From an uncultured Bacilli bacterium (GTDB lineage: Bacteria; Bacillota_I; Bacilli_A; RF39; UBA660), in assembly GCA_944359725.1 (NCBI GenBank), contig CALVSY010000015.1, positions 1-36,388 of the forward strand: 36,388 nt of DNA, given 5' to 3'. Shown piece after piece: positions 1 to 24,585 of this stretch (positions are counted from its first letter, which is position 1; each line of letters opens with the position of its first letter). A model generated the notes under the pieces. That model was not told the DNA's origin, did no database searches, and saw only the letters and a list, made by a program, of their open reading frames with translations. The position numbers were made by a program, and so were the translations under genes.

Positions 1-605
1 TCCTTCATAGAAATCCATCTAAAAAATAAAACTCTATCAATATATTCCATTTTATTCATTCCATTTTTAAATGCTAAATTACCAAAACATTCATAATACA
101 CATTATGTAATTCATTATTTTCATCTCTATATTCAAACTTATCTTCTTTAATATAGCAATGCCCTGTACTATTAACCGGGATAATTCTGTAATCCATTTG
201 TTTATAATCAAATACCTTTGCACATTCATTATCACTAAATTTACCACTATGATATATTAACTTAATATTATTAGTAAAAAACCTATATGAAATTTCATAA
301 TCCATGAATGTTATATTATGATCTTTATCATAATATAACACTTTGTTATTACAAATATATTTATCATAAGATTCAAACATATCGTTTATTTCATCTTGAA
401 TTATAAATTTACTTCTATGCGATTTAAAAGTTATTATACCTTTTTGTTCATTTTTAATATCATATGAAAATTTAGGCAAAGTAATTTTACTTAAATCTGA
501 GCTAATTTTATATTGGTTATATCCAAAAGGAAATGATCTGAAAATAAATATTATTATAATTAATGATACAGCAATTATTATAAATAGTTTTAATCTCTTT
601 GTCAT
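1..605 (-). CDS. Membrane-anchored hypothetical protein, C-terminus cut by window edge
   Basis: Open from an ATG at 605 (AAGGAG six bases upstream) to the window edge with no stop, giving 201 visible residues. Residues 7-24 form one strongly hydrophobic segment after a basic start (MTKRLKLF), so it is a signal anchor or signal peptide; there is no lipobox. The rest is hydrophilic with three cysteines and many aromatic residues. I recognise no family. It follows the endolysin gene in the same direction but is separated by a terminator-like hairpin and has its own possible promoter, so it is probably a separate cargo transcription unit. Confidence 0.65.
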   Translation of the reverse strand, partial: MTKRLKLFIIIAVSLIIIIFIFRSFPFGYNQYKISSDLSKITLPKFSYDIKNEQKGIITFKSHRSKFIIQDEINDMFESYDKYICNNKVLYYDKDHNITFMDYEISYRFFTNNIKLIYHSGKFSDNECAKVFDYKQMDYRIIPVNSTGHCYIKEDKFEYRDENNELHNVYYECFGNLAFKNGMNKMEYIDRVLFFRWISMK

Positions 606-657
606 GATTTCTCCTTATAAATATTATTTACTGCCAATTAACACATTTTATAAATTT

Positions 658-666
658 ATAATATCA
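658..666 (-). promoter_or_regulatory. Possible extended -10 promoter of the left-edge gene
   Basis: On the minus strand TGA directly precedes TATTAT, an extended -10, about 50 bases before the start at 605. No good -35 is seen. The same TGA-plus-hexamer form occurs before other genes of the element. Confidence 0.35.
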
Positions 667-693
667 TATTTAATAAAATAATTAAATATGAAT

Positions 694-730
694 ATTTTAA
701 AAGGATACAAAATAATAATTTGTACCCTTT
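694..730 (-). terminator. Intrinsic terminator after the M23 endolysin gene
   Basis: A 12-bp stem (arms 700-711 and 719-730) lies just past the stop at 736. One pair is G-U only when read as minus-strand RNA, supporting that direction. The following U-run is short (UUUU). Confidence 0.6.
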
Positions 731-735
731 ATTAG

Positions 736-1473
736 TCAATAAATAAACCCATAACTTTCTAATGCCCTTAAAGTTTTAGGACCAATATAACCATCAATAT
801 TATCGTCATATCTCCCCTCTGCTTTAGCTCTTTCTTGAAACTCTTTTACCCATTTCTCAAGATATGGTCCAAATAAATTACCATCTAACAACTTATGAGC
901 CTCTTCTCTAGTTTTACAAAAATATCCATAAAAATATTCTGCGAAAAAATAACATACCTTACCTATATTATCACATGAGTCACCACGTTTGAAATATGAT
1001 TTGTTTCCAAAAAATGAATTACTACTTACAGACGCAGATGTTTCATTTTGCTCAGTATAAGAATATGTCTCAGGATTTAAATATTCTCCATTAGATAAAT
1101 TAACAATGGATAAATGAAGGTGAATACCAGTTGCTTTACCACTCATACCAGTGTATCCTAAAAGCGTGCCCTTAGATACTATTTGATTAGTTTTACAATT
1201 AACACTAGATAAATGATAATGAAGCATTTTAACGTTTATCCTAGGATATTTAACCCAAACAAATTTTCCTCCTAAAGAATCCGTACCACAACTTAATACA
1301 GTTCCATTTTCAATAGCATATTGTGGTAGTTTAACGCCGTTTGTGCCGTAATCTGTTCCATTATGAAAAGAACTTGTATAACCACCTTTAGTGTTCATTA
1401 CTTTTCTATTACCAAAACCAGATGTTACATAATGATTAGCATTTTTAAATATTAAATTAGTTATCTTGCTCAT
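736..1473 (-). CDS. M23-family peptidoglycan endopeptidase (endolysin-like)
   Basis: A 245-aa zinc metallopeptidase of the LytM/M23 fold that should cut peptide cross-links of peptidoglycan. The signature is visible: His37 and Asp41 in HNGTD, His118 and His120 in GIHLHLSIV, with a further HYH motif at 85-87. A Ser/Asn-rich linker (about 140-160) leads to a C-terminal domain ending in DGYIGPKTLRALESYG, which resembles a peptidoglycan-binding repeat. There is no signal peptide, as in phage endolysins and unlike most secreted M23 enzymes. Its start overlaps the end of the holin-like gene by 17 bp, the usual holin-endolysin coupling. It could also act as the wall-opening enzyme of the conjugation machinery. 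Confidence 0.85.
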   Translation of the reverse strand: MSKITNLIFKNANHYVTSGFGNRKVMNTKGGYTSSFHNGTDYGTNGVKLPQYAIENGTVLSCGTDSLGGKFVWVKYPRINVKMLHYHLSSVNCKTNQIVSKGTLLGYTGMSGKATGIHLHLSIVNLSNGEYLNPETYSYTEQNETSASVSSNSFFGNKSYFKRGDSCDNIGKVCYFFAEYFYGYFCKTREEAHKLLDGNLFGPYLEKWVKEFQERAKAEGRYDDNIDGYIGPKTLRALESYGFIY

Positions 1474-1684
1474 TTTTTATCACTTCAACGGCTTCGGTTT
1501 TGGTTTTATCAGAATTATCCTTATTAAAGAAATAAGTTGCAATCATTCCCATAATAAGCATAAAATTATCGCTTCCTATTTTTTCGGTAATAGATAAGTA
1601 AAAAAACGCTCCAAATGTAAGTAGTGTAATTATTGATTTTACTTTAAACAAATTAATAATTGATGATATTAATTTTTCTTTCAT
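1457..1684 (-). CDS. Small holin-like membrane protein
   Basis: 75 residues from the ATG at 1684, chosen over an ATG 36 bases upstream because TGGAGGAG stands seven bases before it. Two hydrophobic segments (about residues 15-33 and 38-53) are followed by a charged tail (NKDNSDKTKTEAVEV), the layout of small phage holins. It overlaps the M23 endolysin start, so the two are translationally coupled. Known holins of this type open the membrane to let a signal-less endolysin through; that role here is inferred from position and topology, not a recognised family. Confidence 0.65.
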   Translation of the reverse strand: MKEKLISSIINLFKVKSIITLLTFGAFFYLSITEKIGSDNFMLIMGMIATYFFNKDNSDKTKTEAVEVIKNEQDN

Positions 1685-1759
1685 TATATCTCCTCCATCT
1701 ATAAAAATCACTATAGCCACATACTAAAAACACAACAATTACCGTATAATCAATCTTAT

Positions 1760-2089
1760 TTATAAATCTCTTTTTTCAATATTCTCTCTTACTTTTAGTA
1801 ACACTTGATAATAATCAATTTTATCAAGTCTAAAATTTAAATATAATAATAATTGAGAAATAATATCAACAGCCTCATTTATATATAACCTTACATCTAT
1901 ATTCACATCATTATCTCTTTGTCTTGGCACACTATATTTTAATAGTTTTTCTTTAGTTAAATTTGCCAGTTTCTTTTCCTCAAGGTCTTCTAGTTCTTCT
2001 ATATTTTTACTTAAAACTTCTATTAAATCATTATATTCTGATATCTTAAGTACCATTTTAATTGGTGGTATTTTTTGTGAATATGCCAT
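1760..2089 (-). CDS. Small conserved-looking protein, paralogue of the 21.1-kb gene
   Basis: 109 residues beginning MAYSQKIPPIKMVLKI, well started (GGAGATG before ATG). It aligns along its length with the 106-aa product at 21136-21456: both open with MAY..(K/R)IPPI, share a KLLKYS(V/I)P / KLLRYSIP motif in the middle, and end in a predicted helix (INKI..YYEMLLENR; LDKIDYYQVLLKVREN). No transmembrane segment or known domain is seen. One copy sits beside ssb and the other beside sigma and lysis genes, so it may be a DNA-binding or regulatory protein, but I cannot name a function. Confidence 0.7.
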   Translation of the reverse strand: MAYSQKIPPIKMVLKISEYNDLIEVLSKNIEELEDLEEKKLANLTKEKLLKYSVPRQRDNDVNIDVRLYINEAVDIISQLLLYLNFRLDKIDYYQVLLKVRENIEKRDL

Positions 2090-2136
2090 TTTTTCATCTC
2101 CGTTCTTCTTTTTATTTAATCACTATCTTAAAATGC

Positions 2137-2208
2137 TTATAAATTATAAAATATTAGTAATTCATTGTTATTTAGTACAGGCAAAGGAGAAAAAATATTC
2201 CCCTTCAT
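2137..2208 (-). CDS. Possible 23-codon small protein downstream of sigma gene
   Basis: An uninterrupted small frame begins MKGNIFSPLPVLNNNEL and ends at TAA. AGGA lies five bases before the ATG. It starts about 20 bases after the sigma-factor stop and precedes the 109-aa gene, so it would be translated from the same message. It could be a genuine small protein, or the N-terminal remnant of a longer gene truncated when the element was rearranged. No family recognised. Confidence 0.4.
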   Translation of the reverse strand: MKGNIFSPLPVLNNNELLIFYNL

Positions 2209-2227
2209 CTGTTTCCTAAATAAAACC

Positions 2228-2716
2228 TTATTTGTGTAGTCTATTTTTAAAATTTTTTTGAATTTTTTTAATAGCAATATCAACACTAAATTTTATAGCT
2301 CTTTTTGTACAATTTTCTTCTTTAGCTATTTCTTCGAATGTTTTTCCATAAAAATAATATTTTATTAATCTTTTTCTTTGGATATATGGCAAATTATTAA
2401 TAAGGTTATTTAAATACTCATTATTTAACCTACCATCAACAATATCATCAATAGATACTTGTTTTTTTATTGCTCTTTTATAAAGAGTTTGTTCAATCAT
2501 TTCAGAATGTTCAATATGATTATCATACTCATTTAACTCCGATAAATCATCTAATTCAAATCTATCAAATGCTTCGTATAACAACTTATCTATTTCAACG
2601 ATATGATGATTATTTTGACCATCATCAAATGATACAAAATATCTTTTGTTTTTCTTATCAAAAGTTAATACATATGGATTATCTTTTTTCTTTCTTCTTT
2701 TTGGTCTATGTTCCAC
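2228..2716 (-). CDS. ICE-type small sigma-70-like factor
   Basis: 162 residues from the GTG at 2716 (AGGAGG just upstream; the protein starts VEHRPKRRKKKDNPY). The C-terminus (about 110-160) is a sigma region-4-like helix-turn-helix: LPYIQRKRLIKYYFYGKTFEEIA...CTKRAIKFSVDIAIKKI. The middle has the ELDDLSELNEYDNHIEHSE stretch that I associate with sigma-like proteins of Firmicute conjugative elements. Such proteins are thought to drive or modulate transcription of element genes. The frame stays open 54 codons upstream through a structured leader to an ATG at 2875 that has its own ribosome site, so a longer form is possible. Confidence 0.8.
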   Translation of the reverse strand: MEHRPKRRKKKDNPYVLTFDKKNKRYFVSFDDGQNNHHIVEIDKLLYEAFDRFELDDLSELNEYDNHIEHSEMIEQTLYKRAIKKQVSIDDIVDGRLNNEYLNNLINNLPYIQRKRLIKYYFYGKTFEEIAKEENCTKRAIKFSVDIAIKKIQKNFKNRLHK

Positions 2717-2724
2717 GTTTCCTC

Positions 2725-2744
2725 CTATCAAAAAAATTTGATAG
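2725..2744 (-). promoter_or_regulatory. Perfect hairpin abutting the sigma-gene ribosome site
   Basis: Arms CTATCAAA and TTTGATAG with a 4-base spacer form a 20-bp inverted repeat touching the AGGAGG of the GTG start at 2716. It could be an operator or a structure that controls initiation. Confidence 0.5.
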
Positions 2745-2786
2745 AAAATCGGTGGAGCCCTTTGACTATAACTGTTGTTTAAATAT

Positions 2787-2832
2787 AAAAAAAAAGCGCG
2801 CACGCTTGTATATAAATGCGACGCAGCTTTAT
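2787..2832 (-). terminator. Candidate attenuator in the sigma-gene leader
   Basis: Read on the minus strand, a hairpin with a TGCG/CGCA core (2817-2825, flanked by ATAAA/TTTAT) is followed by a compact GC-rich hairpin (AAGCG/CGCTT, 2794-2807) and a run of nine T. The GC-rich bases stand out in very AT-rich DNA. The terminator lies inside the in-frame extension upstream of the sigma gene and about 70 bases before its GTG start, the usual position for an attenuator. Confidence 0.55.
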
Positions 2833-3157
2833 TATAAAAAAAATAAATATTAATAATAAAGTAGTATTTTATCATAAGCAATCACTCCGTAATTGCGTAT
2901 ACCATTGTCATTGGTATAGATAAATACTACACAAACTCTATTCCAATAAACATTAACTAATATATATATAATAAAAGAAATCTTAATTACTTCTAAATTA
3001 CTACATACTGCTTGTTACTGCTCATTGTATATTTATAAAATTTAAACATACCATTACTTTTTTCCTTTCTTATTTTATATAATATATAAAATGGTAATGC
3101 AATTAAAAGTATTATACTACATATTTCTCCATTTTTCTCTAAATTGGTAAATTTACT

Positions 3158-3565
3158 TTATTTTTTTGAATTATTTTTTTCTTTTTTAATTAATTGTTTT
3201 ATTGATTTATATAGCACCGTTGGTACTTTTATACCTATCTCGTTACTATTTTCTAATATAGATAGTATTTCATTGAAAATAAAGGAAACTATTATAAGGG
3301 TTCTTAATCCACCATTTACATTAAGCAAATGATCCAATAAAACAGATACAGTAATAATACATAAATATACAACTTTTTTTATTATTCCTTTTGCACCAAC
3401 ACTACTATTGACCTTCTTTTTAATAAAAGCCTTACAAACACCAGTAATATAATCTAAACACATTAAAACAAGAATTGCTTTAATCAAAAAATCAAAATCG
3501 CCAAATAAAAACAAAAAAATGTTTTTGAATAAACTTCCTATGTTTACAATAAAATTTTTGATAAT
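3158..3565 (-). CDS. TcdE/phage_holin_4-type holin
   Basis: The product matches the toxin-secretion/phage-lysis holin family: FLFGDFDFLIKAILVLMCLDYITGVCKAF, then a second and third hydrophobic stretch and a very basic tail (KSIKQLIKKEKNNSKK). Family members form membrane pores for endolysin release; TcdE helps release signal-less clostridial toxins. The frame has no ATG/GTG at a suitable place. A TTG at 3634 lacks a ribosome site, while AAAGGAG sits five bases before an ATT at 3565, giving about 135 residues with the normal family N-terminus. The start is therefore uncertain. It is upstream of the sigma gene and near the 789-aa lysin. Confidence 0.75.
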   Translation of the reverse strand: MIKNFIVNIGSLFKNIFLFLFGDFDFLIKAILVLMCLDYITGVCKAFIKKKVNSSVGAKGIIKKVVYLCIITVSVLLDHLLNVNGGLRTLIIVSFIFNEILSILENSNEIGIKVPTVLYKSIKQLIKKEKNNSKK

Positions 3566-3607
3566 ACCATCTCCTTTAATATATAAAAGACTTTTTTGAC
3601 AATAACA

Positions 3608-3616
3608 TGATATAAT
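3608..3616 (+). promoter_or_regulatory. Extended -10 promoter for the plus-strand gene
   Basis: TGATATAAT at 3608-3616 is an extended -10 with no clear -35; the start codon at 3636 follows a very short leader. The same TGATATAAT is found before the HU and lipoprotein genes. Confidence 0.5.
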
Positions 3617-3635
3617 GTTTATAAAGGAGGACAAA

Positions 3636-4184
3636 ATGAAAAAAAAGAATATTATATTTTTAGTAGTGTTTATTATTATATTAGTTATTGGTGGCGCCTT
3701 AATATTTTTTAAGCTAGATAAAAATCAAAGTCAAAATAATAAAGATTATAGAAGATTAAGCAATCTTGAAGTAATATCCCAGCATAATGAATATGTGTTA
3801 GCATTCGATGAACATCTTTCAGAACTTGATACTTTTGCGGTTTTTAAAAATGTAGAATCAGATATGTATAAAAAACAATTTAAGGTTGTAAATGACAATT
3901 ATGTTGAAAGCAGGTTTGTTTGTTGGACAAATGATAAATTATATATATTAAACTTTGATGCCAAATCATATGATTTAGCTACTGGAAAAATAACAGATGA
4001 AAATAGCTCATCATTATTCAATGGCACTACTGGAAGAATGGATAGAGTTTTGGGAATTTATGATGATTTTATTTATTATGAATATATTTATGTTGCAGAT
4101 AAATTTTATGCAAGAATAAGTTTAGATTTATCAACAGTTGAATATATAGAAGAAAAAGATGTTCCAAAGGAGTTATATTATTAA
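3636..4184 (+). CDS. Membrane-anchored hypothetical protein, only plus-strand gene of the element
   Basis: 182 residues from the ATG at 3636, preceded by AAAGGAGG. The start MKKKNIIFL leads into one hydrophobic segment (5-27) with no lipobox, so the protein is probably anchored with its bulk outside. The outer part is rich in Tyr, Asp and Phe, with alternating short hydrophobic stretches (DKLYILNFDAKSYDLATGKI) suggesting a beta-rich fold. No family recognised. It is transcribed against all neighbours from its own promoter and ends at a two-way terminator, so it is an independent unit, possibly cargo or an immunity-type gene. Confidence 0.75.
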   Translation: MKKKNIIFLVVFIIILVIGGALIFFKLDKNQSQNNKDYRRLSNLEVISQHNEYVLAFDEHLSELDTFAVFKNVESDMYKKQFKVVNDNYVESRFVCWTNDKLYILNFDAKSYDLATGKITDENSSSLFNGTTGRMDRVLGIYDDFIYYEYIYVADKFYARISLDLSTVEYIEEKDVPKELYY

Positions 4185-4187
4185 ACA

Positions 4188-4229
4188 AAAAAAGAGAAAA
4201 AATACTAATAAAGTACTTTTCTCTTTTTA
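4188..4229. terminator. Bidirectional terminator between convergent genes
   Basis: A 12-bp perfect stem (AAAAAGAGAAAA / TTTTCTCTTTTT) with A-rich and T-rich sides lies between the stops at 4184 (+) and 4232 (-), so it can end transcripts from both directions. Confidence 0.75.
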
Positions 4230-4231
4230 TT

Positions 4232-6601
4232 TTACCATAATGATCTGTCGTAACCATTAACCCCGTTTTTCATATCTAAATCAACAAAAGCACCTGTCGA
4301 ACTTTGAGTATCTAAATCCTGCCACTCCGCACCATTATTATTTCGTTTCTTCTTAAAATACATATATCCATTATTAGTTTTTCCAGCATTACCGGTTCCT
4401 TTTAATTGTGTACCTATAGCTAAAACACCTAGATTATTTCCAGCGCTGTTTATATATTTTAATTCTCTCTTTACTGTAAATATCGCATCGTCTGGATCTA
4501 ATACATTATTTTTAACCAAAGTATTATTTTCTGGATCAAAATTATAATAGCAAAAATTCTCTCTTCCATACATTAAAGAATCCTCTTTATTATATTCACT
4601 AGCAGTTAGAAGTTCTTGGATATATCCATATCGAACTACACCATCAGAATTTCTAAACATTACTTTATGAACAGAATCACCTTCATTTAAAACTAAACCT
4701 GCATAATTTGGAACTCCGTCATACTCGTGATTTCTACATTCAAACCTAATGTATAAATCTCCTGGTTTTATTTCACCTACTTTATGGCCTGATACTCCCC
4801 AAAAATTTACTTCAGAAGGATTAGTTAAATGTATATCTAATTCATCCATAACAGTCTCTAATTCCTGCTTTGCAGGATTATGGCTTGCAACTCCTTGTGC
4901 TTTAGACGAATAAACATTAATTACTCTATTTGAAGTATTAACCATTACTGCTGGCTGAGGAGAAGTAGTATCATACCCAATTGATTGACTATAATCTGGT
5001 TCTGGTTCTATAACTGGTTCTTCAGTTGAACTTGTAATTGATCCAATACCAGTGTCTAAACCAGAAAAACCATCTTTATCAATTTCTATTTGCCCAGCAC
5101 CAGAACCAACAGTAACTGTTGCAAATTGATCAAATGCCCAATTACTTGGAATAGTAAAACCTAAATTACCACTAAATCCTGTTGACATATCGCTAACAAA
5201 GCTTCTTACCGCATAACCCTTATCGCTAACTCTAGAGCAAACATTTCTAGTACCATATATACCTATTTTATATTTACTGTTTTTAGAATTTTTCATTGTC
5301 TCATAAACTTTTTTAAAATATGGAATGATATTAGAAGTAATTTCTGTATCTTGTGGGTCACAATCTACCGCAAAATAAATAACTGTATCTCTTGGTATAC
5401 CTAAATTTGTTGCATAATCATATGCGCTATTAACATCAGTAACGGCTTGTGTTTCAGTAAAGTATGACACCTTATTAGCACTAGCCTGTTGAATTGGAAA
5501 TACTCTTAATCCAGCATTAAATGCTATTTGAAGTTCCTCTTTAGATAATGCTTTACTTGCCCCACTAGCAATTTTACCAGATAAATATCTACCAACATAT
5601 CTATATCCATTATTATATAAAGTTTGAGCCTTTGCAGAATCTAATATCGTCGCACAATCACAGGCTTTTGCAGAACGTGTGGTATCACCGCTACTAATAA
5701 AAATAGAAAGCCATGTCGTCAAATTTAAAACACCTGTCATAGATAATGCATATTTATTTTGAAATTGTTTTACTAAAGCTGTACTTACAGTAGTTCCAAA
5801 ATTTCCATCACCTATACCATTAACATAAAGCCCCATATTGGCCAATTTAGCAAAACGACCAATCTGACTCGTGCTATATTTAGAACCAGAATAATTAGAT
5901 TCAACATTATTATAAGGAATTGTTGGACAGCATCCTTTTGTAGAAGGTCCAAAATTTCCATTAGCAACTGAAGTTGGCATTCCTTCTTCAGCTTGCAAAG
6001 CATAAATCAATGCTTTATTAGTGCTTCTTCCATAAACTCCGTCGCATGGAGAAAGTCCAATATAATTTTCATAATTTGCATTTAAATATCTTTGTATTTT
6101 TTGTATGTTTTTAGTTTTAGTAGAAGTATCATATGAATAAAAATAATCCATAGACATTAACGCTTTCATTATGTTTAATGTAACAGTTGAAGATGATGCA
6201 TTAATTCCCGCATCTTCTTTTAGGTTTTTAACAGCTGCACCTGTTCCACCATAAAAGTTACATGTAGGAGTGTTAGCCCCTATAGCATATCCTTTACATA
6301 ACAACCCTCCTTGAATGATGCCATATATGTTTCTTTTTGTAGTATCATCATCATCTTGTTGTTGTACACCATTAGGATATTTAGCATTAAATTTTGAGAT
6401 TGTTGATGAGCCAAAATTATCAGCTGTTGCAGTAATTCCTAATTCAATTTGTAAAGCATGTAGCAACGCATAAATGGTTGTCCATCCTGTTTTACCATTT
6501 TCTGGTATTTCTGTGTATCCTGTTTTTCCACGATACGTATCGTTAACCCATTTTTGTACATTTAGTACATATGGATCAGAGTTTGCTGCTTTAACAGACA
6601 T
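4232..6601 (-). CDS. Multi-repeat wall-binding protein with Rv2525c/DUF1906 glycosidase-like domain
   Basis: 789 residues, no signal peptide. Residues about 9-305 form four imperfect peptidoglycan-binding-like repeats (each with NxGxxT/GNFGxxT-type turns, e.g. GNFGPST and GNFGTTV). Residues about 310-515 match the glycoside-hydrolase-like Rv2525c family (NNGYRYVGRYLSG, FPIQQ, VIYFAVDCDPQD, KIGIYGT, WAFDQFATV), a GH25-like barrel with acidic residues at 413-415. An acidic/proline linker (525-550) leads to a 240-residue C-terminal region I do not recognise. It should bind and perhaps cleave cell wall. It is preceded by a promoter/terminator leader and lies opposite a TcdE-type holin, which could provide export. 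It resembles phage lysins more than the conjugation hydrolase at 8.5 kb. Confidence 0.8.
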   Translation of the reverse strand: MSVKAANSDPYVLNVQKWVNDTYRGKTGYTEIPENGKTGWTTIYALLHALQIELGITATADNFGSSTISKFNAKYPNGVQQQDDDDTTKRNIYGIIQGGLLCKGYAIGANTPTCNFYGGTGAAVKNLKEDAGINASSSTVTLNIMKALMSMDYFYSYDTSTKTKNIQKIQRYLNANYENYIGLSPCDGVYGRSTNKALIYALQAEEGMPTSVANGNFGPSTKGCCPTIPYNNVESNYSGSKYSTSQIGRFAKLANMGLYVNGIGDGNFGTTVSTALVKQFQNKYALSMTGVLNLTTWLSIFISSGDTTRSAKACDCATILDSAKAQTLYNNGYRYVGRYLSGKIASGASKALSKEELQIAFNAGLRVFPIQQASANKVSYFTETQAVTDVNSAYDYATNLGIPRDTVIYFAVDCDPQDTEITSNIIPYFKKVYETMKNSKNSKYKIGIYGTRNVCSRVSDKGYAVRSFVSDMSTGFSGNLGFTIPSNWAFDQFATVTVGSGAGQIEIDKDGFSGLDTGIGSITSSTEEPVIEPEPDYSQSIGYDTTSPQPAVMVNTSNRVINVYSSKAQGVASHNPAKQELETVMDELDIHLTNPSEVNFWGVSGHKVGEIKPGDLYIRFECRNHEYDGVPNYAGLVLNEGDSVHKVMFRNSDGVVRYGYIQELLTASEYNKEDSLMYGRENFCYYNFDPENNTLVKNNVLDPDDAIFTVKRELKYINSAGNNLGVLAIGTQLKGTGNAGKTNNGYMYFKKKRNNNGAEWQDLDTQSSTGAFVDLDMKNGVNGYDRSLW

Positions 6602-6615
6602 ATTTTCATCTCCTT

Positions 6616-6636
6616 ATATTAAATTTTATTTAATAT
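6616..6636 (-). promoter_or_regulatory. Hairpin abutting the lysin gene's ribosome site
   Basis: A perfect 9-bp inverted repeat (ATATTAAAT / ATTTAATAT, 3-base loop) touches the AAGGAGATG ribosome site of the 789-aa gene, like the hairpin before the sigma gene. Confidence 0.4.
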
Positions 6637-6773
6637 TTAGAAAGATCAAAATACCGTAATCAAAACCGTTTTATTCTTAATATTAAATATTATTTTGACA
6701 ATTAAATAAAAATAAATATACGATTATTAATTCTATAGTCCGGACATATAGAGAAAAATAATTACTTATAAAA

Positions 6774-6833
6774 TAAAAAAGCAGTGTTAATCAATAAACT
6801 TGGAAAATAATCCAACATATATTAATCAACACC
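6774..6833 (-). terminator. Long-loop intrinsic terminator in the lysin leader
   Basis: Arms 6821-6833 and 6783-6795 form 13 pairs on the minus-strand RNA, three of them G-U, so the structure fits minus-strand RNA only. The loop contains a second small stem (TTGGA/TCCAA), and six T follow the stem. It lies between the promoter at 6864-6892 and the lysin start at 6601, and it is also the last stop for transcripts from the transfer operon. Confidence 0.75.
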
Positions 6834-6863
6834 GTATATCTACAATATTCATTTGTCATTTTA

Positions 6864-6892
6864 AATGTAACACATTTAGAATAATTAGTCAA
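6864..6892 (-). promoter_or_regulatory. Promoter upstream of the terminator in the lysin leader
   Basis: On the minus strand TTGACT (6887-6892), a 17-bp spacer and TACATT (6864-6869) preceded by TGT. Transcription would begin near 6857 and meet the terminator at 6774 after about 85 bases, giving a small RNA or an attenuated leader. Confidence 0.6.
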
Positions 6893-6932
6893 CCATTTTA
6901 TCATTATTTTTAATAATAAATCACTTATAATG

Positions 6933-6966
6933 ACAAAACAGTAAATCCTAAGTTTTACTGTTTTGT
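6933..6966 (-). terminator. Strong hairpin after the 279-aa gene
   Basis: A 13-bp perfect stem (ACAAAACAGTAAA / TTTACTGTTTTGT, 8-base loop) lies 17 bases beyond the stop at 6983. The T-run after it is poor, so it may act as a terminator or mRNA 3'-end stabiliser. Confidence 0.5.
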
Positions 6967-6982
6967 TATTATAACAAATATA

Positions 6983-7822
6983 TTATTGTTCCAATTCTGA
7001 CTGAAATTCTTCTAAAAGTGAATCTAAATCACCATTAGTAATTTCATCCGAAGTTTTTTCTGAATATAAAGCTTGATTTTTAACCATATCCTCTTCAATA
7101 AGTTTAATTTGATTAGATAAGTTATTATCATTTGAATAAGTTGTTATCCTATTCTCACTGTCTAATATATAATTACCACTTTCATCAATAAATTCTATAT
7201 CGACATCAAATATATCTCCATTTCTTAAAATATAAGCAACTTGCCACGTCCCTTTCATTGATTCGTCAGTTGATTCTTTAGTTTTTATATCAAAGAAATT
7301 TGCTGCGGCATAATCTCCATCTATTTTTTCTTTTGAAGAATTAATCGCCTTATTAAATATTGAAACCAAATATTCTTTACTAACAACACCAATGTTTAGA
7401 CCATTTAAATCATCAACAGTAATTGAATTATTAAATTGTTTCTTATTAAAATAGTTTCTTATAGCAATTAAATCATCCCTATATTCTTCGGAGTTTATTA
7501 AGCTTACATATTCCGGTTTTATTTCATCCACAATTTCGCCCGTTGTTTTATCAATCACTGGTATGGAATATCCTTCCATCTCTTTATATTTTAAATTATA
7601 TCCATTAAATATATAAGACTTATCAGAATTATCATCCGGGTAATATATTCTAAACAAATATAACCATCCATCTTCCTGTTTTTCGTATGCACTTTTTAAT
7701 GAAAAATCAGTTCCTTCAACTTTTTTTGCATCAACACTTATTTTATCACTAAAAATGAATAACGTAATCACAAGCAATACTACAATTAAAGGGACTACAA
7801 CTTTCCTTAACTTATTCTTCAT
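6983..7822 (-). CDS. Membrane-anchored extracellular hypothetical protein
   Basis: 279 residues with a basic N-terminus and one hydrophobic segment (about 8-26), then a hydrophilic, acidic body. No lipobox or wall anchor, so it is a signal-anchored or secreted protein. The C-terminal third (DVDIEFIDESGNYILDSENRITTYS) is acidic and probably ends in helix (DSLLEEFQSELEQ). GGAGGTG precedes the ATG. It follows the 166-aa secreted gene by 12 bases and is the last gene before two terminators. In Tn1549-like elements this position often holds element-specific surface or transfer accessory proteins; no family recognised. Confidence 0.7.
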   Translation of the reverse strand: MKNKLRKVVVPLIVVLLVITLFIFSDKISVDAKKVEGTDFSLKSAYEKQEDGWLYLFRIYYPDDNSDKSYIFNGYNLKYKEMEGYSIPVIDKTTGEIVDEIKPEYVSLINSEEYRDDLIAIRNYFNKKQFNNSITVDDLNGLNIGVVSKEYLVSIFNKAINSSKEKIDGDYAAANFFDIKTKESTDESMKGTWQVAYILRNGDIFDVDIEFIDESGNYILDSENRITTYSNDNNLSNQIKLIEEDMVKNQALYSEKTSDEITNGDLDSLLEEFQSELEQ

Positions 7823-7834
7823 AATACACCTCCT

Positions 7835-8335
7835 TTATTCCATAAACATTCTATAAGTAAAAAGGCTTTGAGTTATAGGAGTTCCACCTTGATTACCTGA
7901 TATATAAAAAGTTAAATATAATTCACAAGTTTGATCCCCAGCACTGTCTATATTTCTATCGCCTGAATAACCAGAAATTTGCACTTCGCTTATTTCTCTA
8001 TCAAAATAAACAGCAGTATACTTTTTAATATGTTCATCAGGTTCAGACGCAGGCGGATCATCTTCATAAAAATTCATATGAACCAGAACTCCATCAGAAT
8101 ATGGATAGTATGAAGGTAATGTTTTAAATCCAGAAAAAAGAACTCCACTATTTTCTGATCTACAAGTATTATAAGAAGTCTTTACTGAAGCAACATCCCC
8201 TTGAACTATCGGATAAATTTGATACATATATGGGCTTTGATAATAAGGAGAATAATTTCTTGCTTCAACATTTTGTGTTCCAATAATAAATGCTAAAGTA
8301 ACAACAAATATCATCATACCAATTTTTCTTTTCAT
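7835..8335 (-). CDS. Secreted hypothetical protein with two cysteines
   Basis: 166 residues with a clear signal peptide (MKRKIGMMIFVVTLAFIIGTQNVEA, cleavage probably after VEA). The mature part is about 141 residues, starts with a Tyr/Pro/Gln-rich stretch (YSPYYQSPYMYQIYP) and has two cysteines (in SYNTC and DQTC) that could form a disulfide. Predicted beta-rich. GAAGGAGGTGA precedes the ATG. It is preceded by a promoter and terminator of its own (8398-8506), so it can be controlled apart from the transfer genes. No known family. Confidence 0.7.
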   Translation of the reverse strand: MKRKIGMMIFVVTLAFIIGTQNVEARNYSPYYQSPYMYQIYPIVQGDVASVKTSYNTCRSENSGVLFSGFKTLPSYYPYSDGVLVHMNFYEDDPPASEPDEHIKKYTAVYFDREISEVQISGYSGDRNIDSAGDQTCELYLTFYISGNQGGTPITQSLFTYRMFME

Positions 8336-8395
8336 ATATTCACCTCCTTCTTTCTAATATCTATTAAATGCCTAAGCATGTAATAGTCATAATTA

Positions 8396-8434
8396 AAAAG
8401 CAAAAGCAGTATTTTTCAGATGAAAAATACTGCT
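8396..8434 (-). terminator. Intrinsic terminator between the CHAP gene and the 166-aa gene
   Basis: A perfect 12-bp stem (AGCAGTATTTTT / AAAAATACTGCT, 6-base loop) followed on the minus strand by TTTGCTTTTT. It ends transcripts from the conjugation operon and from the promoter at 8479-8506. Confidence 0.85.
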
Positions 8435-8478
8435 ACTCATCGCAAATATATACAATTTAATAGAATATCTCTAATTTA

Positions 8479-8506
8479 ATTATAACATATGTTTTTTTAT
8501 TGTCAA
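8479..8506 (-). promoter_or_regulatory. Near-consensus promoter just past the CHAP gene
   Basis: Minus strand TTGACA (8501-8506), 16-bp spacer, TATAAT (8479-8484) preceded by TGT: the best sigma-A match in the window. Transcription would start near 8472 and meet a strong terminator after about 75 bases. Confidence 0.8.
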
Positions 8507-8525
8507 TAAATATCAGTTAATTTTT

Positions 8526-9965
8526 TTAATAATTAGGAATTCCATAACCATATATATACTTACTGTTTATAGAGTATTTCTTTTGCTTAACTTCATCTCT
8601 TGAATTACCCTCAACAGTATATACATTTTTTTCATCACTTTTTTCTACAATACCCACATGATCAGTATGACCATCTTGTTCCCAATCAAAAAATATAACA
8701 TCACCAGCTTTAGGTATGTACCCTTTTTCTTTCCATAAGCCCATTGATTTAAACCAAGGAACACCTTGCGTATGACAAGTTGAAAATTTAGGTACTGCTG
8801 TATTAAGGTATCCTGCTTGATTAAATACCCAAGATACAAAAACAGCACACCATTCTACTCTTGAATTAAAACCATACCATTGCCAGTAGGGCTTACCACC
8901 AACATTTCCAACTTGAGATAATGCAATATCAACAACGTTAGAATCTCCGCCACCAGTCATGTGTATAACGTTTGACCAAAGACTAGCATATTTATCACTT
9001 AAGAGTTCTTTTATTTGTTCTTTTTGCAAGGTATTAAAGTTATACTCTACCATCATATCGTTAACACTTTTACTTTCTACATTAATATATAAAACTCTTT
9101 TCATACCTCCCATTCCATCATTCTCATCTTGAACACTGTAATTAACTACATTCATTTTCCAAAAGACTTCCTTTAAAACCTTTGTTTTATTATCATCAAT
9201 TGTAACTACATTTGTAGCATTTTTACCATTTGAGACAATGACGGTATAAACTGCAAGCACATTCTTCCATTCAGTCCTATTAATATTTAAAACATAATCA
9301 TCATGTACGTTTTCACTTTGAATGGTTGCTATTTTCTGAGCAAACTCATTATTTAATTCTGATATAACACTACTCATAGTTTTTTCCCCAGTATTATTAC
9401 TGCTAAAAAAGATACCAAAAACAGAATTAAGAACGGAATAGATTACGCAAATAACAACTATTACAACAACTATAATCCACCCACCCGCTATTAAAGCGGT
9501 AATAATTGCTTTTACTCCAAACACAATTGCCTTAATGGTTTTAAATGTCGTAGTTATTGCTACTTTTACTCCTTTTGCTAATCGTCTTATGTTATTTGCA
9601 ATTCTAATTGGTGCTTTAACAGTTTTCTTCACAACCCTTTTTGAAGTCTTAATTGCTAACTTTTTACTTTTTCTATTTGCAAATTTACTTTTAATTGTCT
9701 TTATTTTATTTTTAACTTTCAAAAAATTATTCTTAGTAGTTAATACGGATTTATTACCTAATTTTGAAAAAGCTCTAGCACCACGCCTCGAAGCTTGAGT
9801 TGATATATATTCAACTTTATTACTTCCATATTCAGAAACCGATTCCTCGCTATTCTTTTCTTTTATATCAACCAAATGACTTTTAAACTTATCTGAAGCA
9901 ATATGCTTTTTATCAAGCTTCTTTATATACTTATCATTAACCTCCTTAAGTTTAATTCTTGACAT
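8526..9965 (-). CDS. CHAP-domain peptidoglycan hydrolase of the conjugation machinery
   Basis: 479 residues. The N-terminal 150 residues are very basic (many KTIKSK/KKLAIKTSKR runs) and presumably cytoplasmic; one transmembrane segment spans about 152-182; the outer part ends in a CHAP amidase/endopeptidase domain (about 340-479). The catalytic Cys is in EWCAVFVSWVF, His in GHTDHVGIVE, and the Asn/Glu site is near VEGNSRD. In Gram-positive type IV secretion systems such anchored hydrolases (VirB1-like, compare Tn916 Orf14 and CD1107-type proteins) open the wall for the channel. It starts seven bases after the VirB4 gene ends, in the transfer operon. Confidence 0.85.
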   Translation of the reverse strand: MSRIKLKEVNDKYIKKLDKKHIASDKFKSHLVDIKEKNSEESVSEYGSNKVEYISTQASRRGARAFSKLGNKSVLTTKNNFLKVKNKIKTIKSKFANRKSKKLAIKTSKRVVKKTVKAPIRIANNIRRLAKGVKVAITTTFKTIKAIVFGVKAIITALIAGGWIIVVVIVVICVIYSVLNSVFGIFFSSNNTGEKTMSSVISELNNEFAQKIATIQSENVHDDYVLNINRTEWKNVLAVYTVIVSNGKNATNVVTIDDNKTKVLKEVFWKMNVVNYSVQDENDGMGGMKRVLYINVESKSVNDMMVEYNFNTLQKEQIKELLSDKYASLWSNVIHMTGGGDSNVVDIALSQVGNVGGKPYWQWYGFNSRVEWCAVFVSWVFNQAGYLNTAVPKFSTCHTQGVPWFKSMGLWKEKGYIPKAGDVIFFDWEQDGHTDHVGIVEKSDEKNVYTVEGNSRDEVKQKKYSINSKYIYGYGIPNY

Positions 9966-9972
9966 GTATTTA

Positions 9973-12291
9973 TCATCTTTCTCCAGGCTTAGTTGTCATT
10001 AACTTATACAACCTAGTATCTTTAGGAAACTTATTAACAAAAGGCACAAGTGAACTACCGTATTTTATTAAACCACATCCTGCCGGGGAATTTGTTATAT
10101 AAGACATTTGTTCATCAGAAATATTTAATAGCTTGGCCAATTCCATTCTATCTGCTGATGCTTGATTTAACATAATAATAAATTCGCTATTAGAAAGCAT
10201 TGTAGAAGCTTCTACCGAAGATAAAAGATACTCTACGTTTTGGGTAATAGCAGTTGGATAGGCGTTTCTCTTTCTAAACTGACGCCATGCACTATTGAAA
10301 AATGCCGCCGAATATTCGTTTTCAAGCATTACATGTACCTCATCAATAAAAATATGTGTTCTCTTACCTTTTTTATAATTTTCAGCAACTCTATTAATCA
10401 TTGCATCAGTAATAACTAAAAGTCCCATTGATTTTAATTGTTTACCTAATTTATATATATCATAAGATATAATCCTACTGTTAGTGTTAACGTTCGTTTC
10501 ATGAGAAAAAACATTAAGTGATCCGTCAGTAAATAGTTCTAAAGATAACGCTAAGTTTTGTGCTTCTTTTTCAGGCTGTTCTAATAAACATTTTCTCAAG
10601 TCAAGCAATGTAGGAATTTCATCAGTATTATTAAATTCCTGATAAACTAATGAAGTACATCTATCTATAATTGATTTTTCTTTTGAACCTAATTCTTTTT
10701 TTCTGTCTAATTGTTCAAATAGTGATAAAACAAATTCAGATTTATTAACAACCGGATTAGCACCTTCACCATAACCTTCATTCATATCCATGGCGTTTAT
10801 ATGATCTCTACTACTAGCGGAAATACTAATAACTTCACCACCCAATGCTTTTACTAGTGCGGAATACTCTCCTTCTGGATCACAAATCAATATATCATCT
10901 TCCGTTGATAAAGAAAGAAAAACAATTAATTCTTTGGCGCTAAATGATTTACCACTACCTGGAACACCCAGAAGAAATGATGATTGGTTAAGTAAGTTTG
11001 TTTTGTTTACCATAATAAGGTTATGACTTATTGCGTTTTCACCATAGTATATACCACCTTTATCAAAAATCTCTTGTACTCTAAATGGATTTAATACAGC
11101 CAAACTTTCGGTCGTTAATGTTCTTAAAATCTCTACATTCCTTACACCAATTGGTAAAACGGTGTTTAACCCATCCATTTGCTGATATTTTAACGGTACA
11201 ATTTGACAAAGGTGTTTTCTTCCAGTAATTAATACTGTTTCAGTATCGGCATCTAATTGCTCTTTAGTATCAGCGGTAATAACTAATGTTAGATTAGCAA
11301 ACATCATGCGTTGATCCCTTGTTGTTAAATCATCTAAAAATTCTTTGCTTTCTTTTCTTTGCTGTTCCATATCGTAAGGAACTACTGCACTAAAATTATT
11401 ATTAGCATTTTGTTTCCTTTGCCAGTTAGTAATGTTTGTTTCAACTCCTAGTAATCTATTCTCAACTTCCTTAACAGCCTCATCTGTTGGTATCGGAATA
11501 ACATCTATACTTAACATTAAATTCTGCTTCATGTCAGTCAACTCAGCTATCATACTATCTTTAATATAAGAAGCATATTCTTTTAAAAATAAAACCCTCC
11601 CAAATTTACTACCCATTGTAAAATAATCACTTTTAAAAGAAAAACTATCCGGGCATATATAATCTTTAAAACTATGCCCTTTTCTCATCAAGCCCTTTAT
11701 ATCCAAGTTATAGTTAGATTCTTCTCCTATTCTATAAAAGTCATGCAAAATTCTTAACTTTTCTGTCGCATTTAATTCTGTGCATTTTGATCCTAATTTT
11801 GATAAATGAGAAATAATATCACTTGATATTCTTCTAAAATAATTTTTTGCGTCTTCATGGCTTTTTTTATAAACAGAAACAGTTAAATATATTTCTCTAA
11901 CCATTCCATTGCTATCAATGGCTTTTTCTAAAAGCATTTTATTATACTCTTGACGGTATATATCTAATCCATCTTGTTTAAACTCAAGAAGTATGTCTTT
12001 TTCAAAATTCTTCTTATTAATTCTTCTTAAAGCTATGGTTATTTTAGTAGTTGATCCACTATCAAAAGAATTAAGTAATTCAGAATAGTCTAAGAACATA
12101 CTTTCCTTATCTTCCTTAGATGCAACAGCATAATTAATATCGGTAAATTTAAAAGTTAAGGAATACTTGTTTTTTCCTACTAAAAATATACCATCATCCC
12201 ACATTCTTTGTATTGGTATAACATCTTGAACTCTTTTAGGTATATGATAACCCTCTTTTTCTTGTTGTTTCATTCTTTTTATTGTTTTCAC
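9973..12291 (-). CDS. virB4: VirB4-like conjugation ATPase
   Basis: 772 residues, normal length for the VirB4/TraE/ConE family that powers assembly and substrate transfer in type IV secretion. Walker A is GVPGSGKS (442-449), Walker B is THIFIDEVH (about 645-653), followed by the sensor-like WRQFRKRNAYPTAITQN. The N-terminal 250 residues are the conserved VirB4 membrane-facing domain. Start is a GTG at 12291, two bases after the PrgI stop; the AAGGAG lies rather far upstream, within prgI. TGA and TAA stand back to back at the end. It belongs to the virD4-to-CHAP operon. Confidence 0.95.
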   Translation of the reverse strand: MKTIKRMKQQEKEGYHIPKRVQDVIPIQRMWDDGIFLVGKNKYSLTFKFTDINYAVASKEDKESMFLDYSELLNSFDSGSTTKITIALRRINKKNFEKDILLEFKQDGLDIYRQEYNKMLLEKAIDSNGMVREIYLTVSVYKKSHEDAKNYFRRISSDIISHLSKLGSKCTELNATEKLRILHDFYRIGEESNYNLDIKGLMRKGHSFKDYICPDSFSFKSDYFTMGSKFGRVLFLKEYASYIKDSMIAELTDMKQNLMLSIDVIPIPTDEAVKEVENRLLGVETNITNWQRKQNANNNFSAVVPYDMEQQRKESKEFLDDLTTRDQRMMFANLTLVITADTKEQLDADTETVLITGRKHLCQIVPLKYQQMDGLNTVLPIGVRNVEILRTLTTESLAVLNPFRVQEIFDKGGIYYGENAISHNLIMVNKTNLLNQSSFLLGVPGSGKSFSAKELIVFLSLSTEDDILICDPEGEYSALVKALGGEVISISASSRDHINAMDMNEGYGEGANPVVNKSEFVLSLFEQLDRKKELGSKEKSIIDRCTSLVYQEFNNTDEIPTLLDLRKCLLEQPEKEAQNLALSLELFTDGSLNVFSHETNVNTNSRIISYDIYKLGKQLKSMGLLVITDAMINRVAENYKKGKRTHIFIDEVHVMLENEYSAAFFNSAWRQFRKRNAYPTAITQNVEYLLSSVEASTMLSNSEFIIMLNQASADRMELAKLLNISDEQMSYITNSPAGCGLIKYGSSLVPFVNKFPKDTRLYKLMTTKPGER

Positions 12292-12293
12292 TA

Positions 12294-12647
12294 TTATAAA
12301 TCACTCCTTTCCTTATTTTTTATATAAGGTTTCATTAACTCATAATAAATATTTTTTGATATAAATTTCAAATGTCTTGGTACTAATATTTCTGATTTTA
12401 TCCATGCCCAAATAAACTTTTCAACAGTCATACCATTATAGGTTACAAAGCCAAGCGCCGCAAAAGGAGCGGCACCTAGCATACATATCCAAGAAAGCAT
12501 TTCTGCTCCAATACTATTACGTAATGAGAAATATAAAAAAATAGCTACTACACAAGCTAATACCGAAAAAAAGAATTGTCTCATAGATAGTCCAAAAAAT
12601 ATACTCTCGGTGTAATTTCTTATCTCTTTATTAATCTTTACTTCCAT
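12294..12647 (-). CDS. PrgI-family membrane protein (VirB3-like)
   Basis: 117 residues starting MEVKINKEIRNYTESIFFGLSMRQF, the typical opening of the PrgI family from Gram-positive conjugation systems. Two transmembrane helices (about 23-43 and 50-72) are followed by a conserved-looking GMTVEKFIWAWIKSE and a basic tail. It is the VirB3 counterpart that works with VirB4, and it lies directly before virB4 as in Tn1549-like elements. Confidence 0.9.
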   Translation of the reverse strand: MEVKINKEIRNYTESIFFGLSMRQFFFSVLACVVAIFLYFSLRNSIGAEMLSWICMLGAAPFAALGFVTYNGMTVEKFIWAWIKSEILVPRHLKFISKNIYYELMKPYIKNKERSDL

Positions 12648-12650
12648 TTA

Positions 12651-13163
12651 TTACCTCTCAAAAAAACTATTAACTTTATTTTCCTTTTCAAAATTTTCAT
12701 GCATCTTGGTACTTTCGATAGCCTTTGCCTGATAAGAAGGATTATTTTTAATACTATAATAAGTTGAAACTATATCTTCACTTAAAAAATGATAATCTTT
12801 TTTTTCAAAACTCTTTTTTTCATTTATGAAGTCATTTGTAAGTTCAATAGATATTTGCTCATTAACTCTTAAGTCTTTAGGATTAATACCTAAGTCCATA
12901 CATAATAGTGCTTGATTAAAATATTTCTCATCTTCTTTTTTTAAATTTATTAACTGTGTGTACATAATATTTAGAAATTGCCTACTTGTGACATCACTAA
13001 CATATTTTTCAGTAACTTGATCTAGTATCGATTCATAATGTTTAGGCGGAACTTTTGTTGGTTCTTGTGTATCAGGGTTTATGTACAAATATGTCATATC
13101 ACTTATACTTTTACTCATATCTTTTATTTTTAACTGTGTAAAATCATCATATTGTTTTCTCAT
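12651..13163 (-). CDS. Hypothetical soluble protein of the transfer operon
   Basis: 170 residues, no signal or membrane segment, mostly charged and predicted helical. It begins MRKQYDDFTQLKIKDMSK and has a central helical part (FLNIMYTQLINLKKEDEKYFNQALLCMDLGI). It lies between the TrbL-like and PrgI genes with three-base spacing to prgI, so it is probably a cytoplasmic accessory of the secretion channel. I do not recognise a family. Confidence 0.7.
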   Translation of the reverse strand: MRKQYDDFTQLKIKDMSKSISDMTYLYINPDTQEPTKVPPKHYESILDQVTEKYVSDVTSRQFLNIMYTQLINLKKEDEKYFNQALLCMDLGINPKDLRVNEQISIELTNDFINEKKSFEKKDYHFLSEDIVSTYYSIKNNPSYQAKAIESTKMHENFEKENKVNSFFER

Positions 13164-13196
13164 AAATAAATCATCTCCTATCTTTTATTATTAAAT

Positions 13197-14033
13197 TTAT
13201 AATCCCATCATATTTTTTACCACTCTATCAGATAATTTAACTGTTCCTACCAGAACTAACATATTAAATATTAATTCACTAATATATTTCCATGCTTGAG
13301 TAACTGCTGAAGCATCTGCGTCTACTACTGGTGGTGATGTCGCAAATAAAGAAAAAATTATACACGCCAGCACTATTATTGCGCCTTCCAGACAAACCCC
13401 ACAATAAGACTTTAAAAAGCTAGTGCCAACGTTTTGTGTTGCTTCACTTGCATAAGTAGATAAAGGTATAGGAGCGATAGCCGTATATAAATATAATTTA
13501 AAAAATCTTCCGTAAACAGTCATTATCATAATAAATGAGAGTACGGTTATGACCAGTCCACCTATAATAGCAACAACCCAAAGAGGCATACTTTCTATAA
13601 AACCACAATCTTCAATTGCAGTTATTAACTGTTGTGGCAAAGTAGTCTTCGATGTTAAACCAACACCTGATGTCTTAATAATAGTAGATATTATTCCTTG
13701 AACAATCTTGAATATTGAAAGCATAATATCCAATCCATAGGTAACTATGCCTTTTGCTATTGCAAACCGTAAAAATAATTTTACAGCATGCTCTGGTTTT
13801 TTAACATCCGAAAAAGAAGAAAACGTTTTTACCATACCAACTACAAAAAATAAAACTAAAAGAGCAAATCCAATAGCTTGGACTGCTCCATGTATGTTTT
13901 TAATGACACCCCAAATAGCACCACCTTTAAAGGTTTCGGGTGTTTGCGTTATTAAAGACCAAATTTCACTTATCTTAGAATCCCATATATCTAAAGCATT
14001 TTGTAAATTTTCAACAACCCAATTATCGCTCAA
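13197..14033 (-). CDS. TrbL/VirB6-like polytopic membrane protein
   Basis: 278 residues with about five or six hydrophobic helices (e.g. 53-70, 150-172, 210-230). Sequence such as TPETFKGGAIWGVI, VKKPEHAVKLFLRFAIAKG, GRFFKLYLYTAIAPIPLSTYA and CLEGAIIVLACIIFS closely matches the TrbL-type protein of Tn1549/CD-type elements as I remember it. It should form the inner channel of the type IV secretion system. The start is TTG at 14033, with GGAGG nine bases upstream; the next in-frame ATG lies far downstream, inside the conserved part of the protein. Confidence 0.9.
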   Translation of the reverse strand: MSDNWVVENLQNALDIWDSKISEIWSLITQTPETFKGGAIWGVIKNIHGAVQAIGFALLVLFFVVGMVKTFSSFSDVKKPEHAVKLFLRFAIAKGIVTYGLDIMLSIFKIVQGIISTIIKTSGVGLTSKTTLPQQLITAIEDCGFIESMPLWVVAIIGGLVITVLSFIMIMTVYGRFFKLYLYTAIAPIPLSTYASEATQNVGTSFLKSYCGVCLEGAIIVLACIIFSLFATSPPVVDADASAVTQAWKYISELIFNMLVLVGTVKLSDRVVKNMMGL

Positions 14034-14057
14034 AATATATCACCTCCACCTTTATGC

Positions 14058-14381
14058 TTACTTTGTAATCATATCTATAATTTCCTTTGCAAAAGTAATA
14101 ATTACTCCTCCCGCTAATGATAATATACCATTAGCTCTTTGAGAAGGATCATGACTTTTAAATGATAAACCTATTTGCAATGCTGCAAATCCTAATAAAA
14201 TTATTCCTATCATTCGTATAAGACTGAAAATAAAATTAGATAAGTTATTTACAACAGCCATCGGATCATCAGTTGCAAATACAGTCATGCTTGTTGCAAA
14301 AGTAAAAGTAAAAACTATAATTCCAATAATATAAACCTTATATATTTTATACAAAGTTTTTTCGTATTTACTTTTGTTCAT
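14058..14381 (-). CDS. Maff2-family small membrane protein
   Basis: About 107 residues from the ATG at 14381 (ten bases after AAGGAGG; an ATG nine bases earlier is too close to it). A first hydrophobic segment resembles a signal peptide ending near MTVFA; a second helix (about 45-68) is followed by SFKSHDPSQRANGILSLAGG, the hallmark of Maff2 proteins found beside VirD4 in Tn1549-type elements. Size and two-helix layout resemble VirB2 pilins, so it may be the pilin counterpart, but that is inference. It overlaps the end of virD4 by 14 bases. Confidence 0.85.
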   Translation of the reverse strand: MNKSKYEKTLYKIYKVYIIGIIVFTFTFATSMTVFATDDPMAVVNNLSNFIFSLIRMIGIILLGFAALQIGLSFKSHDPSQRANGILSLAGGVIITFAKEIIDMITK

Positions 14382-16179: not shown

Positions 16180-16196
16180 AATTATCTTTCCAATAC

Positions 16197-16250
16197 TTAT
16201 TTCTGATTTTTATCATATACATCAATTAAACTTTTATTAATTTTATTCAT
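16197..16250 (-). CDS. Possible 17-codon peptide before virD4
   Basis: ATG at 16250 with GAGGAA seven bases upstream; encodes MNKINKSLIDVYDKNQK and a TAA. It fills the 85-base gap between pcfB and virD4. It may be translated by coupling to pcfB or be chance in AT-rich DNA. Confidence 0.25.
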   Translation of the reverse strand: MNKINKSLIDVYDKNQK

Positions 16251-16264
16251 ATTTATTCCTCATG

Positions 16265-24572: not shown

Positions 24573-24585
24573 TATTTCCTCCTTT

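Follow-up and report, generated by a model that had tools for sequence, protein, structure and literature searches.

The 36,388-nucleotide contig CALVSY010000015.1 (hereafter the window, meaning the whole stretch of DNA analysed; contig C15 of a 1.21-Mb assembly of an uncultured Bacilli bacterium) carries conjugation genes on its minus strand, encoding a relaxase, a coupling protein, a DUF3801 protein, PrgI, a VirB4/TraG-type ATPase and a CHAP protein, and also encodes ParA/ParB, SSB and a sortase. The same strand encodes a 789-aa protein that is likely, to judge from its domains, to be a lysin with lytic activity. The subject of this report is the 5' leader of the lysin gene, which is one conserved unit of ~290 bases reaching from the -35 hexamer of a promoter to the lysin start codon (minus strand, 6892-6599). 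An extended -10 promoter, a terminator-type hairpin (T1) with its T-run, a hairpin P3 and a 3' hairpin P5 follow one another in this order. The features are as follows (SD, Shine-Dalgarno sequence).

-35 at 6892-6887 and -10 at 6869-6864, minus strand: promoter TTGACT-17-TACATT with a TGn extended -10, kept in 4/4 copies
6853..6858, minus strand: TGACAA at the likely RNA 5' end, with TTGTCA a possible closing stem P1; invariant
6782..6834, minus strand: T1, terminator-type hairpin of 15 bp including G-U pairs, with a nested UUGGA/UCCAA stem; compensatory changes
6775..6780, minus strand: T-run behind T1, at least 5 T in 4/4 copies
6732..6752, minus strand: P3, bulged-U hairpin around the invariant GUCCGGAC (6745-6738); 2 double changes
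6696..6701, minus strand: TTGTCA, the 3' strand to TGACAA or else the -35 hexamer of a putative second promoter; invariant in the 4 copies
6654..6669, minus strand: two ACGG repeats 12 nt apart (6669, 6657), in 4/4 copies
6600..6654, minus strand: P5, hairpin pairing GUAUUUUGAUCUUUC with GGAG (6613-6610) and AUG, predicted in 4/4 copies
4232..6601, minus strand: gene under the leader, for the 789-aa lysin-like protein (PF08924 Rv2525c glycoside-hydrolase-like and PF01471 PG_binding_1)

The original prediction had proposed a TTGACT-17-TACATT extended -10 promoter followed by a hairpin with a nested stem and a T-run. Both were found where the list places them, on the minus strand, and identical TTGACT, a 17-nt spacer and TGn recur in all four copies of the leader. 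The gap between promoter and hairpin, put at ~50 bases, is actually 29 nt after the -10 hexamer (28 nt to ACGG), while the distance of ~170 nt onward to the lysin start at 6601 agrees with the estimate. The minus-strand direction given to the hairpin is also borne out, since the RNA of the T1 region folds at -22.3 kcal/mol on that strand (z -7.1) versus -8.5 kcal/mol on the plus strand (z -3.7). Among 167 terminator-like candidates in a T-run scan of both strands of the window, T1 ranks first (-21.9; next -16.9). The layout is that of an intrinsic-terminator attenuator leader, i.e., a promoter and then a hairpin with a U-run within the 5' leader. Strict criteria, set after the site had been seen (TGn, at least 5/6 in the -35 and at least 4/6 in the -10), leave just three extended -10 sites in the 36-kb window, counting both strands; the lysin promoter and a promoter at 8506 are two of them. 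A looser consensus scan of 1-18000 gave 106 promoter-like and 3 terminator-like sites versus 122.4 and 4.1 in shuffles, i.e., no excess, and neither the lysin promoter nor its hairpin was among the sites it printed; consensus matching alone therefore proves nothing.

The four copies of the leader, each located 5' of a lysin, come from three genomes of one Bacilli family: the window, L012 (Bacillales UBA5578), and L013 and L026 (both in G247, RGIG4813). When 250 extra upstream bases were included in the query, homology with L026 and L012 set in at base 1 or 2 of TTGACT and continued through to the ATG; that with L013 began 20 bases later and likewise reached the ATG. The proteins encoded upstream in the window, L012 and L013 are mutually unrelated (blastp, 1e-3). 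In 20-base bins, identity is 0.15-0.65 over the 100 bases upstream and 0.3-1.0 inside the unit, peaking towards the start codon; conservation is higher behind T1 than in T1 itself. The most conserved blocks are GTCCGGAC, the ACGG repeats (a third ACGG stands at 6835, in T1) and the anti-SD strand, all of them downstream of the end claimed for an 80-90-nt structured RNA. The reading as such an RNA is not supported in that form; it would be the front part of a ~290-bp unit that extends to the start codon. At fourfold sites, taken from the conserved N-terminal part of the lysin gene, identity is 0.41 for window-L013 and 0.40 for L012-L013; these sites are saturated, since 0.42 is expected from composition. 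The corresponding leader identities are 0.73 without gaps in both pairs, and 0.65 and 0.67 with gaps. For the window versus L012, the values are 0.56 at fourfold sites and 0.76 in the leader. An nhmmer search from the single window sequence reaches the L013 leader at an E value of 1.4e-9.

Compensatory base changes were sought in the homologous leaders, as had been suggested with the original prediction, and T1 passed: four of its 14 outer pairs are altered on both sides and three on one, 53/56 cells remain paired across the four copies, and in an arm-swap test each arm has its own partner as the best or tied choice in 4/4 rows. Two of the eight pairs of P3 are altered on both sides with 32/32 cells paired, and its arms are own-best in 3/4 rows, the L026 arm preferring that of its close relative L012. 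TGACAA (6858-6853) pairs with TTGTCA (6701-6696) in 3/4 minimum-energy folds. A long closing stem P1 also looked good in the folds; it is not claimed, because in the swap test its extension is own-best in 2/4 rows only. In P5, the strand GUAUUUU(G/U)AU(C/U)UUUC pairs with GGAGAUGAAAAUAU (z -3.7 to -5.0, structure predicted in all four copies), so that both SD and AUG are predicted to be paired in the long transcript of every copy, the kind of SD sequestration known from gene e of phage T4. Of the 23 gene starts compared in the window, that of the lysin folds with the lowest energy (-20.8). Promoter, terminator-type hairpin, compensated P3 and anti-SD strand are all conserved.

On balance, and with somewhat better than even confidence, we read the leader as a cis-acting element that holds the lysin gene off through two successive locks, early termination and then blocked translation. 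Polymerase would start at the gene's own promoter and mostly halt at T1, leaving an RNA of ~75-85 nt. After read-through, P3 and P5 would fold, P5 burying the ribosome-binding site and the start codon, and the lysin would stay unmade until P5 opens. Some signal would presumably relieve both locks; an RNA thermometer was among the possibilities considered. No antiterminator hairpin common to all copies was found, a 5' alternative hairpin being matched by 5, 35, 50 and 880 of 1000 shuffles (window, L012, L026 and L013, respectively), which makes a factor acting in trans the likelier switch. Such a factor could be a protein (RNA-binding or antiterminating) or a small RNA; the ACGG repeats and the hairpin around the invariant GUCCGGAC are its likeliest targets. 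No antiterminator name occurs among the window proteins scanned. A conjugative element has to open the cell wall and yet keep the donor alive; the leader resembles a safety catch for a hazardous enzyme. If this is true, an early terminator and a hidden ribosome-binding site amount to a concrete, testable restraint on a wall-cutting enzyme. The leader is also compact and conserved, has no match in Rfam, and belongs to a family represented here by metagenome-assembled genomes alone.

A second leader lies at 8.4 kb, before the gene of a 166-aa protein, and a palindrome lies between the lysin unit and the gene preceding it.

8336..8506, minus strand: sister leader of the 166-aa gene, with promoter 8506-8479, hairpin 8434-8405 and T-run, hairpin ~8386-8361, and SD
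7835..8335, minus strand: 166-aa protein linked to the lysin; by eye, its start resembles a signal peptide
6912..6987, no strand assigned: T0, imperfect palindrome of 76 bp behind the 279-aa gene, 82% opposite-strand self-match

The claim that the architecture is repeated at 8.4 kb proved true, and the repeat is conserved in L012, L067 (G247) and L068 (G120). With the window (L066), these make up four of the eight copies whose upstream DNA was seen; the sister leader was not seen in L069, L070, L071 or L072. What the four have in common is the SD and two hairpins, GCAGTAT..TACTGC followed by a T-run and GACTATTA..TAATAG. A leader peptide was considered for this region and dropped on inspection by eye: no SD was seen for it, and in the window its frame is different. 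The 166-aa protein occurs in 6/291 genomes of the family, and homologues of it (46%) and of the 279-aa protein (40%) lie beside the lysin in L012. Lysin leader and sister leader are alike in layout, not in sequence. Because the promoter-terminator-hairpin layout is the same, the two genes may be switched together, and finding it again at a neighbour of the lysin gene suggests a regulator common to both. Tentatively, and we would call it unlikely, the leaders could represent a new class of mobile-element leader, in which a factor encoded by the element acts at T1-P3, lets polymerase past T1 and brings about the opening of P5, the conjugative element arming the lysin and the 166-aa protein jointly by one common design. 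T0 is likely a terminator-type hairpin setting the 279-aa gene apart from the lysin unit, and probably a two-way terminator. A protein resembling sigma-70 region 4 is encoded near the lysin, at 2228-2881, and in the Salimicrobium plasmid pSJ52 a sigma-factor-like gene stands closely upstream of the lysin relative. Elsewhere in the window (21470-24647), the sortase adjoins a large SpaA/thioester-domain surface protein, likely an adhesin.

Several observations, together with the missing common antiterminator, weigh against the two-lock reading. There are four copies only, two of them 93% identical. P5 shows no covariation: 21 of its 25 pairs never vary and none is doubly changed, so that it is not confirmable by this means. 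The entire 3' domain departs only moderately from shuffles (z -1.8 to -2.7). With an SD accessibility of 0.23, the lysin gene ranks only fifth from the bottom among 23 window genes; the gene 26206-27030 has its SD and AUG closed to about the same degree, and a lysin that has no such leader, L014, is similarly closed at both (0.25/0.31). Hidden start sites are not unique to the lysin gene.

Other explanations must be set against these data. It is quite unlikely, in our judgement, that timing follows T4 gene e, with P5 silencing long transcripts and an inner promoter yielding a shorter, translated mRNA without P5's 5' strand; in that case, an activator or sigma factor belonging to the element would bind the DNA at GTCCGGAC and the ACGG repeats. 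P5 resembles the gene e design as set out in PMC3014915, the distance between GTCCGGAC and TTGTCA is nearly constant by the script's measure (33, 32, 32, 32), and the sigma-region-4-like protein is close by. However, no well-matched second promoter was recognised by eye in the window (TTGTCA-17-AAGAAT) or in L013, though one read by an unfamiliar sigma factor could escape such inspection; P3 carries compensatory changes that a DNA site does not need, and no regulon is visible, GTCCGGAC being confined to the leaders in the seven loci scanned. Less probable again is a small-RNA gene, in which promoter and T1 make an 80-nt trans-acting RNA and the lysin has its own downstream start. Such a gene would suit the 29 nt between the promoter and a strong terminator-type hairpin, and the presence of ACGG both in T1 and near the SD means that the RNAs could compete for one partner; yet the conserved unit runs unbroken to the lysin ATG, is found before this lysin only, and a separate lysin start is not evident.

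That T1 is an insulator only, curbing spurious or read-through transcription ahead of an ordinary 5' untranslated region, strikes us as distinctly improbable. Terminators do serve as insulators in mobile elements, according to the account of Tn916 in PMC11658703, but T0 already stands behind the upstream gene, T1 follows the lysin gene's own promoter, and the region behind T1 exceeds T1 in conservation. A chance structure in AT-rich DNA, retained by recent common descent, is very improbable. The copies are few, AT-rich DNA readily folds and aligns, and identity climbs to 0.65 in individual 20-base bins immediately 5' of the unit; nevertheless, saturated fourfold sites and compensatory pairs largely refute this explanation, and the abrupt start of homology and the nhmmer E value also speak against it.

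Relatives of the lysin are more widespread than the leader. At E values of at most 1e-20 they were found in 5/291 genomes of the family; six loci came from a set of genome contigs. They also occur more widely, in 5/395 genomes of the class and 544/72,556 plasmid records, 384 of them from Enterococcus; a scan of viral contigs with the lysin alone gave no relatives, and with the lysin alignment 24. Upstream DNA was read for nine lysins (window, L012, L013, L014, L016, L017, L008, L009 and L026, the last via a motif search). The leader was not found before five of them (L014, L016, L017, L008 and L009), and the model search agrees; L015, L010 and L011 are cut and were not judged. In L017, 32 nt lie between the lysin and a homologue (44-45%) of the window 279-aa gene upstream of it, and the leader is absent. 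In the lysin tree, L013 falls together with L014, which has no leader, and with the cut L010 (99/97), and the remaining forks are open. The leader-bearing lysins form no single supported group, and the leader has therefore been lost, gained or exchanged more than once. L010 (G247 C33 end) and L026 (G247 C34 start) are probably the two ends of one lysin gene over an assembly gap. This gene may be a mosaic, because its parts resemble different relatives: L010 is like L014 in the tree, and the L026 leader is like that of L012.

The leader model R1 matched 3/385 genomes of the order, under stricter filters with which weak matches can be lost, 1/12 and 1/2 genomes in two genera, and 3/9 chosen genomes at E values of at most 1; matches at 0.396 (G366) and 0.995 (window, other strand) were taken as chance. 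The motif TATGTCCGGACTA occurs in 2/386 genomes of the family, a sample that overlaps with the R1 sample of the order. At the same limit of 1, R1 found no match in 41 sources (the 24 viral relatives, MT836466, L010, L011, L058-L065 and L067-L072), the upstream DNA of L060-L062 being judged by R1 alone. Viral contigs contained six stretches with the block ATATGTCCGGACTAT, none with a flanking leader by eye, and no match to the three-part leader pattern. With blastn, the leader gave only short weak matches in 18 plasmid and 8 phage records (E values 0.2-0.9), and matches of its surroundings elsewhere in the same genome (L003, L004) were short chance pieces. Rfam 15 reports only tRNA at the gathering score in the window and, up to an E value of 5 within 6590-7000, only sub-threshold matches to the upstream hairpin T0. 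Literature searches covering leaders of conjugative elements and structured RNAs in the neighbourhood of endolysins turned up no description of the leader, although large candidate lists such as PMC8040213 could hold it.

Further features were noticed near lysin relatives. In IMG/VR contigs, a GC-rich, strongly conserved stretch (L037:5620-5997, also in L038, L039, L041, L042, L044, L047, L050 and L052) lies directly 5' of lysin relatives; it has no Rfam match, is overlapped by open reading frames of up to 164 aa, so that it may be coding, and could be a large structured phage RNA. At L034:5850-6000 and similar prophage loci, a terminator-like hairpin AAGCCTTGGAAGAG..CTTTCAGGGCTTTTTT was seen by eye between a possible promoter and the lysin, and promoter-terminator-lysin may therefore be a wider theme. 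Downstream of the L013 lysin (L013:13775-13892), a pemK RNA scores above the Rfam gathering score.

The early terminator and hidden SD before a lytic gene appear to resemble known systems in principle, with no defining sequence of theirs found; conAn, canT, LoaP antitermination and T4 gene e are best regarded as analogues in architecture rather than as demonstrated relatives. In T4 gene e, which encodes lysozyme, the SD and start region are reported to be buried in a hairpin of the longer transcript (PMC3014915). The likeness is a lytic gene, a probable one in our case, with the SD/start region in a hairpin, which is predicted here. T4 late promoters lie within the hairpin region and none was recognised by eye in the lysin leader; the gene e leader, as described in PMC3014915, has no early terminator, unlike the lysin leader. 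The conAn system of pLS20-type conjugative plasmids shares with the present locus a Gram-positive conjugative element and intrinsic terminators, and a weak internal promoter with transcripts ending at a terminator is described for the pLS20 operon (PMC8955417). The lysin leader differs from conAn, as presented there, in sitting late, before one gene; no ConAn1 or conAn2 was identified, conAn and canT not having been searched with models. The canT RNA of Tn916 is a cis-acting RNA thought to allow read-through of terminators (PMC11658703). The likeness is that terminators restrain the genes of the element, but canT is given as a 450-nt region upstream of the terminators, whereas the lysin leader has ~24 nt of RNA before T1.

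The LoaP-dependent dfn/mln leaders share with the lysin leader their own promoter, an RNA hairpin and an intrinsic terminator in the 5' leader, and are reported to need a UNCG hairpin and a NusG paralogue (PMC12691694), neither of which was seen here. PF02357, the family searched for a NusG paralogue, has one match each in G000, G247, G120 and G019 and none in G434, these assemblies being incomplete; the genome of the window itself has one. The late region of phage lambda has a promoter, an early terminator and then the lysis genes, controlled by Q antitermination. Unlike in lambda, no Q-like protein or qut-like site (Q and qut being named in PMC11658703) was identified, and the SD-hiding hairpin is an addition of the lysin leader; the order of promoter, early terminator and lysis gene is the same in both.
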